From NCBI RefSeq assembly GCF_027947535.2, contig NZ_JAAGKO020000072.1:1-32177 (forward strand): a stretch of 32,177 bases of DNA, read 5' to 3'. Below, in pieces: positions 18,453-23,559 of the stretch (within the stretch, counting starts at the first letter, position 1; the number at the start of each line of letters is the position of its first letter). Below the pieces are notes generated by a model, which was not told the DNA's origin, searched no databases, and was given only the letters and a program-made list of their open reading frames with translations. Position numbers and translations under genes: made by a program. Origin of the DNA: Streptantibioticus silvisoli (GTDB taxonomy: Bacteria > Actinomycetota > Actinomycetes > Streptomycetales > Streptomycetaceae).

Positions 18453-20075
18453 GTGACGTCACGTCTGAAGCTGCTGGCCCTGGCCGCCACTCCCGCCCTG
18501 CTGGTCGCCGCGATCCCCGCCGCGTACGCCGCACAGCCGCACGCCGCGCACGCCGCGGTCGCCGGCGACGTGGTGAGCGGGCTGGGCACCCAGGCCGCGA
18601 AGACCGGTTCGGTGGCCGCCGGCAAGCACCTGAACATAGCCGTGAGCCTCGCGCCGAGAAACGCCGCCGGGCTGGCGACGTTCGTCGGTCAGGTCAGCGA
18701 CCCGCACTCGGCCGACTACGGCCACTACCTGACCAAGGCCCAGTTCCAGGCGCGCTTCGGCCGCACCGACTCCGAGGTCAAGCAGGTCAAGGACTACCTG
18801 CGCTCGCAGGGCCTGACGGTCGGCACGGTCCACTCGGGCAACCTGCTGATCGACGCCGGCGGCACCGCGGCGCAGCTGGAGAAGGCGTTCAGCACCAAGC
18901 TGGGCACCTACAAGGACGCGGCGACCGGCCGCTCCTTCTACGCCAACACCTCGGCGCCGACGCTGCCGTCCTCGATCGCCTCGATCGTCAGTGACGTCTC
19001 CGGTCTCAACAACCGCTCCGTGCTGCACCACACCGCGGCGACCTCGGTCCGCCCGCACAACGGTCCCGGCGGCGGCTATACGCCCGCGCAGATCAAGGGC
19101 GGCTACAACGTCCCCAGCTCGGACACCGGTTCGGGCCAGACGGTCGGCCTGGTGGAGTTCGACGGCTTCCAGGCGTCCAACATCAGCACCTACGTCAAGA
19201 ACTACTCGCTGGGCTCCCCCGCGCCCACCGTCTCCAAGGTCGACGGCGGCTCCGGCGCGCTGGGCGACGGCCAGGTCGAGGTCGAGCTGGACATCGAGAT
19301 GATCAACGCGGTCGCCCCCAAGGCGAACGTGAAGGTCTTCGAGGCGCCCAACACCGACGCCGGCGAGACCGACATGTACCAGGCCATCGTGGACGCCGGG
19401 GTGAAGACCACCTCGTCCAGCTGGGGCGAGGCGGAGACCGAGCGCACCGCCTCCAACATGGAGGCCGTGGACGCCATCGTGCAGGAAGGCGCCTCCGAGG
19501 GCCTGGGCCTGTACGCGGCGGCCGGCGACGACGGCTCGGACGACGCGGGCGACGGCGGGCAGTCGGTGGACTACCCGGCGAGCGACCCGTACGTCACCGG
19601 TGTCGGCGGCACCCGCCTGACCGTCACCTCCGGCAACGCCTGGAGCAAGGAGACCGCCTGGTCCGACGGCGGCGGCGGCGTCTCGGAGCAGTTCTCCCTG
19701 CCCAGCTACCAGAGCGGCGTGGAGAAGTCGCAGGGCGGCGGCAACCGCCAGGTCCCGGACGTGGCGGCGCTGGCCGACACCACCCCGGGCGTGTCGATCT
19801 ACTCCCAGGGTGAGTGGACCCTGGTCGGCGGCACCAGCGCGGCGGCCCCGGAGTGGGCGGCGTTCGGCGCCGACTACAACCAGCAGGCCACCGCGGCCGG
19901 CGCGCCCGACCTGGGCTTCGCCAACCCGGCCCTGTACGCGGCCAACGGCACCGGCTTCCACGACATCACCAGCGGCAGCAACGGCGCCTTCTCGGCCGGC
20001 AGCGGCTGGGACTTCGTGACCGGCTGGGGCTCCTACAACGCCGTGACCCTGACCTCCGAGCTGCTGGGCGAGTAA
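18453..20075 (+). CDS. Secreted S53 (sedolisin/kumamolisin-type) acid peptidase
   Basis: A 540-aa pre-pro-protease. Residues 1-26 are a Sec signal peptide (basic MTSRLK, hydrophobic LLALAATPALLVAAIPA, cut near AYA). A pro-kumamolisin domain follows to about residue 200 (HYLTKAQFQARFG). The peptidase domain then carries the S53 Glu-Asp pair E276/D280 in EVELD, oxyanion Asp D359 in AAGDDGS, and catalytic S462 in GGTSAAAPEWA. The C-terminal GWDFVTGWGSYN matches the calcium site. The start is GTG 18453 with AGGAG six bases before it. It probably degrades external protein at low pH after autoprocessing. It is followed by a perfect 15-bp terminator, so it is transcribed alone. Confidence 0.95.
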   Translation: MTSRLKLLALAATPALLVAAIPAAYAAQPHAAHAAVAGDVVSGLGTQAAKTGSVAAGKHLNIAVSLAPRNAAGLATFVGQVSDPHSADYGHYLTKAQFQARFGRTDSEVKQVKDYLRSQGLTVGTVHSGNLLIDAGGTAAQLEKAFSTKLGTYKDAATGRSFYANTSAPTLPSSIASIVSDVSGLNNRSVLHHTAATSVRPHNGPGGGYTPAQIKGGYNVPSSDTGSGQTVGLVEFDGFQASNISTYVKNYSLGSPAPTVSKVDGGSGALGDGQVEVELDIEMINAVAPKANVKVFEAPNTDAGETDMYQAIVDAGVKTTSSSWGEAETERTASNMEAVDAIVQEGASEGLGLYAAAGDDGSDDAGDGGQSVDYPASDPYVTGVGGTRLTVTSGNAWSKETAWSDGGGGVSEQFSLPSYQSGVEKSQGGGNRQVPDVAALADTTPGVSIYSQGEWTLVGGTSAAAPEWAAFGADYNQQATAAGAPDLGFANPALYAANGTGFHDITSGSNGAFSAGSGWDFVTGWGSYNAVTLTSELLGE

Positions 20076-20285: not shown

Positions 20286-20305
20286 AATGTGATGTGCGTC
20301 ACATT
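20286..20305. promoter_or_regulatory. Perfect Crp-type palindrome
   Basis: AATGTGATGTGCGTCACATT contains TGTGA-N6-TCACA, the full E. coli CRP consensus, with matching AA/TT flanks. It also satisfies the Streptomyces Crp pattern GTG-N6-G-N-CAC. It stands in a locally AT-richer island between the sedolisin terminator and the terpene-synthase-like gene, about 125 bases before ATG 20420. A -10-like TATCAC at 20342-20347 would place the site near -57, a class I activator position; that distance is inference. Confidence 0.7.
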
Positions 20306-20419
20306 CGTGTCAGGACGTCAATTCCCCGGCCCTCCCGGACGTATCACTGGTGCACGCGGCGATGCGCCGTGGCGATCCGTGGGGCGTCAGCGCGCCCCGG
20401 GCATCGATCGGGAGTGACC

Positions 20420-21439
20420 ATGCGCGACGACGCCGGACCCCTGGTGGTACCCGAGCTGCACTGCCCCGTGCCGCCGGTCGTCAGTCCGCACGCCCGGCGG
20501 CTGGACCGCGCGGTCGCCGCCTGGGCGACGGCCAACGGCCTGTGCCCCACGCCGGGTCTGCGGCACCGCATCACCCACGCCCGATTCGGCACACTGGCCG
20601 CCCGGACCTGCCCGGATGCCACCGTGGAACGAATGGAACTGCACGCGCAGTGGCTGGCGCTCGCCCTGTTCTACGACGAGGCGTTCTTCCGCCCGCACCG
20701 CGAGGGCCTGCCGGACGCCACCGGGCGGGCCTCGGCGGCGGCCGACGCGGCGATGGCCACCGTCTCGGCGCTGGTGCCCGGCGGCATGCCCGGCGGGCTG
20801 CCGCGCGGCGAGGCGGACCGCCGGCGCTACCGGCTGGACGTGCTGAGCGACCTGCTGAACCGCACCGGCACGATGGCCCGCCTGGAGCAGTACAGCCGGC
20901 TGGGCACCGCGCTGACGCTGTGGCTGTCGCGCCAGGTGCGCGAGGAACCGGCCCCGCCCGGGCCGACCGCCGCGACACCGTGCCTGATCATGGCGGAGAT
21001 CGCCTCCGACTGCCCGATCACCGGTGACGAACTGGCCGGCGACTGCCTGCGCCGGCTCACCGCGCTGGCCACCGAACGCGCCGAGTGGTGCCTGCGGGTG
21101 CACACCGCCGCCCGCCGCCGCTCCGTCGACGAACTCGTGCCCGCGCTGCCGCCGCTGCTCCGGCAGGGCGCCGAACACCACCCGCAGCGGGCGCTGGACC
21201 GCGCCGCGCGCCTCCACGACGAGAGCGCCTGCACCTACCACCGGCTGGAACGGTCCCTGACCCCGCTCGCGACGCCTTCCGTGCTGGCCTACCTCACCCT
21301 GCTGCGCGGCTGGCTGCGCGCCCAGTACGACTGGTCACGCCCGGCCGCCATCATGCCCGGCCCCCTCATCGTGCTGCCCTCCGCCCGCCCCTTCACCACC
21401 GCCCGGCTGACCGCGCCGGTGGGCGGCGTGGCGCTGTAG
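20420..21439 (+). CDS. Class I terpene-synthase-like protein with degenerate metal-binding motifs
   Basis: A 339-aa protein that can be aligned by eye to pentalenene-synthase-type cyclases over most of its length: CPVPPVVSPHARRLDRAVAAW, RHRITHARFGTLAARTCPDA, then LALFYDEAFFRPHREGLP, ending with LRGWLRAQYDWSRP. In active enzymes the aspartate motif reads DDxxD; here it is Y85-D86-E87-A88-F89. The NSE triad region reads AEWCLRVHTAARRR with none of the N, S or E residues in place, and the terminal RY pair is missing. Diphosphate ionisation therefore looks unlikely, and the protein may be non-catalytic or use other residues. The start is ATG 20420 with GGGAG just upstream. It is monocistronic, preceded by a perfect Crp-type site. 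Fold assignment is fairly sure; function is unknown. Confidence 0.75.
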   Translation: MRDDAGPLVVPELHCPVPPVVSPHARRLDRAVAAWATANGLCPTPGLRHRITHARFGTLAARTCPDATVERMELHAQWLALALFYDEAFFRPHREGLPDATGRASAAADAAMATVSALVPGGMPGGLPRGEADRRRYRLDVLSDLLNRTGTMARLEQYSRLGTALTLWLSRQVREEPAPPGPTAATPCLIMAEIASDCPITGDELAGDCLRRLTALATERAEWCLRVHTAARRRSVDELVPALPPLLRQGAEHHPQRALDRAARLHDESACTYHRLERSLTPLATPSVLAYLTLLRGWLRAQYDWSRPAAIMPGPLIVLPSARPFTTARLTAPVGGVAL

Positions 21440-21737
21440 GCCCCCCGCCGCCTCACCGCGCGTGCCCGGCCTCCGACGGCGGGTGACCCTTGCCCTTGCA
21501 CCGCCGACCGTGGCCGACGCGCGACGGTTGACATCCGGCACGAGGGCGTACGGGCAGCCGCGTTCGGGCGCGGGGCGCTGACGCGCAGTCGCACGCGGGG
21601 GCCGGTGCGGGCGTGGCTCGCGTCATGCGGGGCGAGCCCGGCGGCCGGCGCGGAGACCCTCCGGTGCGGGCGCGGCCTCCGTCCTGCGGAAAACGGCCCC
21701 GGCGGCCGACGCGACGTCCCGGCGGTCGGCGCGTGAA

Positions 21738-21804
21738 GGTCCGACTCCGGTGCATGAGGTCCCATCCGGCGCATGGGGTCCGACAAGCGGGGTCCGGCGG
21801 GCGG
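21738..21804. repeat. Short degenerate GGTCC-led direct repeats
   Basis: Four consecutive segments begin GGTCC at 21738, 21758, 21777 and 21791 (20, 19, 14 and 14 bp), with shared CCGG/GCATG elements. The whole gap 21440-21966 is GC-rich with no credible gene; a TTGACA at 21528-21533 has no matching -10 box. Confidence 0.5.
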
Positions 21805-21966
21805 GGTCGTTCACCCGGCACCTGTCACTGCCGCCGATGAGCAGGGTCCGGGCGGGGCGCACTCCGACAGGCGGGGGCCGGCCACGAGGTCCGGCTCCGG
21901 CGCACGGCCCCCGCGGGTGCCTTCCTCCGGCCGCGTCACCGAGGCCCGCGGCCGTAACCGGTGGGC

Positions 21967-22581
21967 TCAGGCTCCGGCGAGCAGGGTGACGCCGACGACG
22001 ACCATGGTGGCGGCGACCAGCCAGTCCAGCACCCGCCAGGCGGCGGGGCGGGCGAACAGGCCGCTCAGCAGCCGGGCGCCGAACCCGAGGGCGGTGAACC
22101 AGCAGGCGCTGGCCACCATGGCGCCGGCGCCGAACGCCCAGCGTGCCGTGCCGTGGCCGGCCGCGACCGAACCCAGCAGCAGCACGGTGTCGAGGTAGAC
22201 GTGCGGATTGAGCCAGGTCAGCGCCAGGCAGGTCAGCACCGCCCGACGCGCCGACCCGGCGGTGGTTCCCGGGGTCCGCAGGCTCTCGCCGGAGCGCAGG
22301 GCGCGGCGGGCGGCCAGGGCGCCGTAGGCCAGCAGGAAGCAGCCGCCGAGCACCCGGACCGCCAGCAGGGCCCGGGGGAAGGCGGTCACCAGCGCGCCGA
22401 CGCCGCCGACGCCCAGCGCGATGAGGAGCGCGTCGGACAGCGTGCAGATGCCGACGACCGCGAGGACCGCCTCACGGCGCACCCCCTGGCGCAGGACGAA
22501 GGCGTTCTGCGCGCCGATGGCGACGATGAGGGACAGGCCGGTGCCGAAACCCGCGGCGGCCGCGGAGACGAAGTGGGTCAC
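21967..22581 (-). CDS. lysE: LysE/ArgO-family basic amino-acid exporter
   Basis: A 204-aa inner-membrane exporter of the LysE superfamily, known for efflux of lysine and arginine. Family hallmarks are GLSLIVAIGAQNAFVLRQG near the N-terminus and LTWLNPHVYLDTVLLLGS in the middle. Five to six hydrophobic helices are visible, ending in WLVAATMVVVGVTLLAGA. The start is GTG 22581; a GGAG lies further upstream than usual. It is divergent from an ArgP/LysG-type regulator across a 66-base region with a perfect palindrome, the classic arrangement in which the regulator, bound to basic amino acids, switches on the exporter. Confidence 0.93.
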   Translation of the reverse strand: MTHFVSAAAAGFGTGLSLIVAIGAQNAFVLRQGVRREAVLAVVGICTLSDALLIALGVGGVGALVTAFPRALLAVRVLGGCFLLAYGALAARRALRSGESLRTPGTTAGSARRAVLTCLALTWLNPHVYLDTVLLLGSVAAGHGTARWAFGAGAMVASACWFTALGFGARLLSGLFARPAAWRVLDWLVAATMVVVGVTLLAGA

Positions 22582-22647: not shown

Positions 22648-23559
22648 GTGACGACCGAGCTGCCCCTGGACCAGGTACGGACCCTGCTCGCCGCGGTCGA
22701 CGAGGGCACCTTCGACGCGGCGGCCACCGTGCTGCACGTGACGCCTTCGGCGGTCAGCCAGCGGATCAAGGCGCTGGAGCAACGGGTCGGCCGGGTGCTG
22801 CTGCAACGGACGAAGCCGCTGCGGCTGACCGATTCGGGCCGGACCGTCGCCCGGTTCGCCCGGCAGCTGGCGTGGCTGGAACGCGACACGCTCGCCGAGC
22901 TCGGGATGACGCCGGCCGGCGAGCCGTCCCGGGTGACGATCGCGGTGAACGCCGACTCGCTGGCCACCTGGTTCCTGCCGGCGCTGGGCCGGGTGCCGCA
23001 GGACGCGCGGATCTGCTTCGAACTGCGCCGCGAGGACCAGGACCACACCACCGCGCTGCTGCGCGAGGGCCTGGTGATGGCGGCGGTCACCTCCTCGCCG
23101 GACCCGGTGGCCGGCTGCTCGGTGCGGCGGCTGGGCCGGATGCGGTACCGGGCGGCGGCGGCGCCGGCGTTCGTCGCCCGGTGGCTGGCGGGCTGGCCGG
23201 CGACGCCGCTGGGCGAGCTGCTGACCGGGGTGCCGGTGGTGGTGTGGGACCGGCGCGACCGGCTCCAGGACGCCTTCGCCGACGCGGTCACCGGCGGGAC
23301 CGGCGCCGGGACGCTGCGCCACCACGTGCCGACGTCCGAGGGCTTCCTGGACGCGGTGGCCGCCGGGCTCGGCTGGGGCATGGTCCCGCAGGCCCAGGCC
23401 GCCGGCCGGCTGGAGCGCGGCGAGCTGGTCGACCTGGCGCCGGACCGGCCGGTCGACGTACCGCTGTACTGGCAGCAGTGGCGGCTGGACTCCCCCACCC
23501 TCACCGCCGCCGCCCGCGCGGTCGCCGAGCAGGCCGCCACGACGCTCGACGACGGCTGA
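22648..23559 (+). CDS. argP: ArgP/LysG-type LysR-family regulator
   Basis: A 303-aa LysR-type regulator closely following the ArgP pattern. The N-terminal winged helix reads LDQVRTLLAAVDEGTFDAAA and HVTPSAVSQRIKALEQRVGR (about 5-55), and a periplasmic-binding-like effector domain (about 88-295) follows. In characterised systems ArgP/LysG senses lysine, arginine or histidine and activates the exporter transcribed divergently, which matches the layout here. The start is GTG 22648; no Shine-Dalgarno is visible and the only candidate -10 lies just upstream, so translation is probably leaderless. It ends in AATTLDDG. There is no sign of degeneration. Confidence 0.92.
   Translation: MTTELPLDQVRTLLAAVDEGTFDAAATVLHVTPSAVSQRIKALEQRVGRVLLQRTKPLRLTDSGRTVARFARQLAWLERDTLAELGMTPAGEPSRVTIAVNADSLATWFLPALGRVPQDARICFELRREDQDHTTALLREGLVMAAVTSSPDPVAGCSVRRLGRMRYRAAAAPAFVARWLAGWPATPLGELLTGVPVVVWDRRDRLQDAFADAVTGGTGAGTLRHHVPTSEGFLDAVAAGLGWGMVPQAQAAGRLERGELVDLAPDRPVDVPLYWQQWRLDSPTLTAAARAVAEQAATTLDDG

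Follow-up and report, generated by a model that had tools for sequence, protein, structure and literature searches.

What becomes of a gene that resembles a terpene synthase along its whole length, but has lost the residues with which such an enzyme works? This question is raised by a locus in the stretch of DNA analysed here (32,177 nucleotides, hereafter the window) from the soil actinomycete Streptantibioticus silvisoli. A class I terpene-synthase homologue of 339 residues, devoid of the catalytic motifs, lies at 20420..21439 (+ strand, as do all features of this gene given below), an assignment made from homology, tree and fold. Nearly all of the residues that grip metal and diphosphate have been replaced or deleted, so that in all likelihood the protein is not a working synthase but either a "dead" enzyme put to a new use or a remnant in slow decay. 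We think it fairly likely that the gene encodes a catalytically dead terpene-synthase pseudoenzyme which is still maintained as a folded protein.

As an earlier note on this DNA had stated, the frame is intact and the codon use normal: 339 codons run open from the ATG at 20420 with no internal stop, and the codon-bias score (0.95) falls within the range of 19 window genes (0.70-1.07). GC1/2/3 are 0.77/0.58/0.94, and a Shine-Dalgarno-like GGGAG, found by direct reading at 20410..20414, ends 5 nt ahead of the ATG.

The same note had claimed full-length homology to terpene synthases. In support of this, the protein matched bacterial class I synthases both in NCBIfam (selinadiene synthase, E 1.7e-13) and in the PDB (T-muurolol synthase, E 4.4e-13, residues 15-309). 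In Pfam, the window protein gave no match to PF19086 or to any other terpene-synthase family at E<=1, and one match in all, at E 0.28, whereas four homologues used as controls matched PF19086 at E 4.6e-26, 2.9e-29, 3e-31 and 2e-38, the first two being the values of the two nearest relatives. The AlphaFold2 model of the window protein, built from a 3-sequence alignment, had a pLDDT of 68.8 and a pTM of 0.74, and the same alignment gave 69.6 and 0.77 for an intact relative; confidence is moderate in both cases, and the presence of two intact relatives in the alignment may bias the prediction toward a normal fold. The predicted fold is the alpha-helical class I fold. Superposition recovered it over near-whole length with Z scores of 25.0-28.6 against 1-epi-cubenol synthase (9hqa), T-muurolol synthase (9hqd), selinadiene synthase (4okm) and pentalenene synthase (6wkd), the last being the comparison that the earlier note had proposed. 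The highest VIA-align score (Z 28.6) was to selinadiene synthase and the best Foldseek match (E 1.8e-10) to 9hqa. However, the window protein is only about 17-24% identical to these four enzymes, and their metal and diphosphate ligands are absent from it. An unrelated helical family was rejected, since Pfam offered nothing beyond its single match and all 50 matches listed by VIA-align are terpene synthases or cyclases; no other fold matched better, so the claim of homology stands. Judged from its sequence, the protein is a real class I terpene-synthase homologue by descent and similarity.

The nearest relatives found were proteins of Actinacidiphila guanduensis (L012, 43-44% identical) and Streptomyces griseocarneus 132 (L013, 38%), which are of similar length and resemble the window protein along its whole sequence. 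The three proteins form a clade with support 100/100, within which the inner branch uniting the two relatives is short (0.12, support 96/79). The end branches measure 1.11 changes per column for the window protein and 0.53 and 0.61 for the relatives; note that the window branch is long and that long-branch joins may be false. Unlike the window protein, both relatives keep DDxxxD, NDxxSxxRE, the sensor Arg, RY and the PF19086 match. The sequences thus show descent from an ordinary class I (Mg2+-dependent) terpene synthase whose full catalytic apparatus is kept in the nearest relatives found; in the line leading to the window protein, the RY pair, the diphosphate-sensor segment, every NSE ligand (three in all) and the third acid of DDxxxD were lost.

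Searches for the window protein covered 100 relatives and, from a larger group of family genomes, 394, its own genus being represented by a single genome in the set searched. In the 394 family genomes, three beyond its own reached E 1e-15, and only A. guanduensis was close (45%, 9.4e-59). A contig scan with the window protein alone returned no relatives; with a two-sequence profile it returned the A. guanduensis protein together with that of S. griseocarneus 132. The three-sequence profile, applied to 35 Actinacidiphila genomes, gave one close relative (A. guanduensis) and two more matches at 8e-35 and 5e-34, and the A. guanduensis protein was itself sought in 394 class genomes (E<=1e-30) and in 393 family genomes. 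The altered motifs were seen in one sequence only. The idea that the altered Asp motif might be conserved in orthologues did not hold, as both orthologues found carry normal motifs.

The names sensor Arg and RY pair, and the helix letters, are used here for the motif parts that we take them to denote. In the alignments, the Asp-rich motif is degraded to D86-E-A-F-F-R91 (20675..20692), where the relatives have DDAFFD and DDTFFD: the first Asp is kept (D86), the second is conservatively replaced (E87), and the third acid has become Arg. The partner of this third acid is R94 in one MAFFT alignment, which opens a 3-residue gap after F90, and R91 in another, but it is Arg both ways. The earlier note had therefore seen the loss of DDxxD correctly, although its register (Y-D-E-A-F) was one residue off. 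The NSE motif (NDIHSAARE and NDIFSARRE in the relatives) is likewise degraded, to L225-R-V-H-T-A-A-R-R233 (21092..21118), with N/D/S/E replaced by L225/R226/T229/R233. Here too the reported loss was real, and the replacements given for the triad (E, R, A) were not: the aligned residues are L225, T229 and R233. A frameshift as the origin of the lost NSE was rejected, since the flanking residues align without a gap. The terminal RY pair, also said to be gone, is occupied in the alignment by I311-M312 (21350..21355). In addition, a 15-residue internal in-frame deletion near residue 183 takes out the diphosphate-sensor Arg segment; its junction lies at approximately 20966..20971, the exact place depending on the alignment.

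The alignments show a conserved helix-J segment, W-L-R-A-Q-Y-D-W (21311..21334), although the invariant Gly of this segment is A301 in the window protein, and D86, R232 and the helix-J W305 are retained. The C-terminal tail (residues 313-339, 21356..21436) has low model confidence and is longer than in both close relatives. A small, late frameshift after W305 could explain this odd C-terminus; the other frames hold no clear remnant. Relocation of the motifs within the protein was rejected, because direct reading found no second DDxxD or NSE anywhere in it, and so the motif loss stands. Conservation was lower at the motifs (2/11 residues kept, D86 and R232) than at the other residues shared by the relatives (87/148; Fisher p 0.011, or 0.017 without gaps), the 11 motif positions having been picked from general knowledge of the family. 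In sum, the Asp-rich motif, NSE/DTE, sensor Arg/RY and PF19086 match that characterise a class I terpene synthase are all lacking, and the protein is an enzyme-family homologue without the conserved catalytic motifs, and in this sense a pseudoenzyme.

How unusual this is was seen in a survey of 131 distinct aligned segments (the window protein among them; merging of identical rows had reduced the set from 147), drawn from the matches listed, 50 of which were added to the loci already collected; it leaves aside paired matches in frames mostly longer than 700 aa (geosmin-synthase-like) and the C60 match of the window's own genome. This last match (G000:C60:74174-75121) is terpene-synthase-like and lies within an open frame of 2262 residues. 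Two truncated or gapped rows aside, the window protein was the only one of the 131 segments with neither N/D in the place of the Asn nor E/D in that of the Glu. The sensor Arg was kept in 119 of the 131 rows and the RY Arg in 124. Single departures were not rare, with A, H, T or S at the Asn position in 7 rows and R or G at the Glu position in 3 besides that of the window protein; examples, each with part of the motifs kept, are L089, L091, L092, L093, L107, L116, L145, L147 and L153. Among these, the Streptomycetaceae proteins L145 and L147 have NDIQSPGRRG, with PY in place of RY, and L153, also from the Streptomycetaceae, has AQDRYAD and TSDYYA-SRDN, with no RY aligned.

In class I synthases, according to a review (PMC10563020), the substrate diphosphate is held by basic residues and by three Mg2+, for which DDxxD/E and NSE/DTE provide the ligands. 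Since the ligands for the three Mg2+ and the residues that hold the diphosphate are absent from the window protein, ionisation of GPP, FPP or GGPP by the usual mechanism would not be expected. Could the class I fold instead support a different chemistry, either metal-independent or with a neutral terpene as substrate? The normal fold prediction and the retention of D86, R232 and W305 would allow it, but we regard such an enzyme as very unlikely: 16 of the 30 aromatics shared by the relatives are lost, including the equivalents of F79/F81 and Y163/Y165/Y167, the sensor segment is deleted, and new conserved residues cannot be picked out from one sequence. The sensor deletion and the aromatic losses weaken a different cation chemistry and a faithful prenyl pocket alike; prenyl binding is possible, although weakened on both counts.

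If the protein is not a working synthase, is it maintained or decaying? In the reading that we prefer, it would still be produced as a folded, helical protein and be under selection as such, because the frame is open, the codon bias is kept, the hydrophobic core is preserved and a Crp-like site lies upstream. The rival reading, possible but in our judgement the less probable of the two, is that of a relic in slow decay, a non-functional synthase that drifts and has remained free of stops because the DNA is very G+C-rich. The long window branch (1.11), the in-frame deletion, the odd C-terminus and the fact that the protein is the sole representative found in the genomes searched all favour decay, as does its loss of Phe and Tyr, which make up 3.3% of the residues compared with 8.7% and 7.4% in the relatives. 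Of the 30 aromatics common to the relatives, 14 are kept, compared with 70 of the 90 aliphatics (p 0.002). Before the Asp motif, F79 and F81 of the relatives have become L81 and L83, and ahead of the deletion Y163, Y165 and Y167 have become S170, Q172 and R174. At other shared sites, 26 of the 56 substitutions have a negative BLOSUM62 score. The long branch, these unfavourable changes and the loss of aromatics would fit relaxed constraint.

Against decay, the motif codons for N, D, E and Y each differ by 3 bases from those of both relatives and yet the frame is open, from which it follows that change continued after the first hit and that the motifs have long been free to vary. The normal codon bias also speaks against it, as does the core, in which 54 of 63 family-hydrophobic columns are kept (3 more are gapped; binomial p 5e-11), compared with 59/66 and 61/66 in the relatives. 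The 70 of 90 aliphatics retained likewise favour maintenance. Neutral drift was simulated from the A. guanduensis gene (2000 runs, two base compositions), with one indel per 20 substitutions assumed. An intact frame survived in 7.5%/6.9% of the copies at 0.05 substitutions per site, in 0.45%/1.0% at 0.1, and in none at 0.2 or more (0/2000 at 0.2). The window branch exceeds those of the relatives by about 0.4 changes per column, which by a rough conversion corresponds to about 0.2 substitutions per site if neutral. When stops alone were counted, 6.0%/9.0% of the copies were still stop-free at 0.2 substitutions per site, which is in favour of the relic. Judged by stops alone, the open frame is thus weak evidence, the rest of the simulated loss coming from frameshifts at the assumed rate. 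Taken together, and for a protein seen in one genome, we hold maintenance to be about twice as probable as decay. The earlier note had suggested a selected, non-catalytic, prenyl-binding or regulatory protein. The loss of metal binding is well supported and maintenance is favoured, but the prenyl-binding or regulatory role is a suggestion only, the case for a faithful prenyl pocket being weakened by the deletion and the aromatic loss.

A non-catalytic protein of this kind could also form part of a heteromeric enzyme, as a subunit of a prenyl or terpene synthase. There is a precedent in the mint GPP synthase small subunit, which is a prenyl-synthase-family subunit without DDxxD (PMC7839719); however, it belongs to another family, comes from a plant and works with a large subunit, whereas no partner is seen near the window gene. 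When 20 chosen window frames were compared with Pfam (E<=1e-5; 2 of the 20 gave no match), no terpenoid gene and no prenyl-synthase family appeared among them. Among the other terpene synthases of the same genome, the one aligned in full (L002) is just 22% identical to the window protein. We consider a heteromeric subunit the least probable of the explanations. The genes nearby suggest no pathway, and this lack of context also counts in favour of the decaying relic.

The step of the maintained-pseudoenzyme reading that we regard as weakest concerns function: the protein may be a non-catalytic partner or a ligand-binding protein whose transcription is tuned by control of the cAMP-receptor type. 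Between the upstream sedolisin gene and the homologue gene lies a perfect 20-base palindrome, AATGTGA-TGTGCG-TCACATT (20286..20305, assigned to neither strand). Its core, TGTGATGTGCGTCACA at 20288-20303 (TGTGA-N6-TCACA), is separated from the ATG by 116 nt. This candidate site agrees with GTG(N)6GNCAC, the Crp consensus of Streptomyces (PMC10033298). The exact TGTGA-N6-TCACA pattern occurs in 11 places in the 8.7 Mb genome, 10 of them outside coding-like frames by a crude test, and its reversed control in none. Allowing up to 2 mismatches gave 2 sites in the window against an expectation of 4.2; weight is therefore given to the perfect match alone. No Crp-like site with up to 2 mismatches was found at the A. 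guanduensis locus, and the S. griseocarneus 132 locus has a single one, which carries 2 mismatches and lies 3.7 kb upstream of its gene; the window site, being absent near the relatives, may be unrelated to function. We consider it rather unlikely that the protein, under control of the cAMP/Crp type, senses or regulates isoprenoid metabolism without catalysis. If this were true, there would be a class of bacterial terpene-synthase pseudoenzymes invisible to motif-based genome mining.

The protein probably represents a maintained pseudoenzyme form of the bacterial class I terpene synthase, known so far from one genome. It resembles other pseudoenzymes in that the conserved catalytic motifs of its family are absent, following the definition in a review (PMC10211241); the main text of this review does not contain the words 'terpene', 'prenyl', 'isoprenoid' or 'diphosphate synthase'. 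In the open-access literature, the titles and abstract openings among the matches listed mention no bacterial class I homologue without both motifs; reports in print may exist. Surveys of bacterial terpene synthases select by the metal motifs, for example with a Pfam HMM screen (PMC7192455), and since those motifs are absent here, dead members would go uncounted. If the protein is maintained, the terpene-synthase fold would be one more that bacteria have put to non-catalytic use, and would show, as an experiment of nature, which of its parts persist after selection for catalysis has ended. Should the protein instead be a relic, it would record how a cyclase site is lost.

The upstream neighbour encodes a sedolisin-type protein (18453-20075, +), and downstream lies a LysE/LysR pair (21967-22581, -; 22648-23559, +). 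This neighbourhood is not syntenic with relatives: of 31 genomes, 17 gave a match to the sedolisin and 16 one to LysE, both counts including the window's own, and among the places listed in these genomes the two occurred close together nowhere but in the window. Around the S. griseocarneus 132 gene, 3 of 5 frames matched Pfam (a ricin-type lectin domain, a haem-containing dehydratase and an AMP-binding enzyme, none of them terpenoid), and around the A. guanduensis gene none of 5 chosen frames did, these frames probably being ill chosen. A search next to the sedolisin relatives of G016, G013 and G018 turned up no remnant synthase in the stretches taken (no match better than E 2.8); the G002 sedolisin stretch holds a distant terpene-synthase match, L113 (23% identical, E 8.6e-6). 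Two relatives, at G018:C3:263726-271923 and G002:C114:49033-55936, have a different terpene-synthase gene at a distance of 4-6 kb from a sedolisin gene, which may be coincidence. Scans of the window for tandem repeats, promoters and terminators gave nothing useful for the homologue gene. Short G+C-rich tandem repeats of 19 and 14 bases lie at 21727-21808, within a downstream intergenic stretch of 79% G+C.
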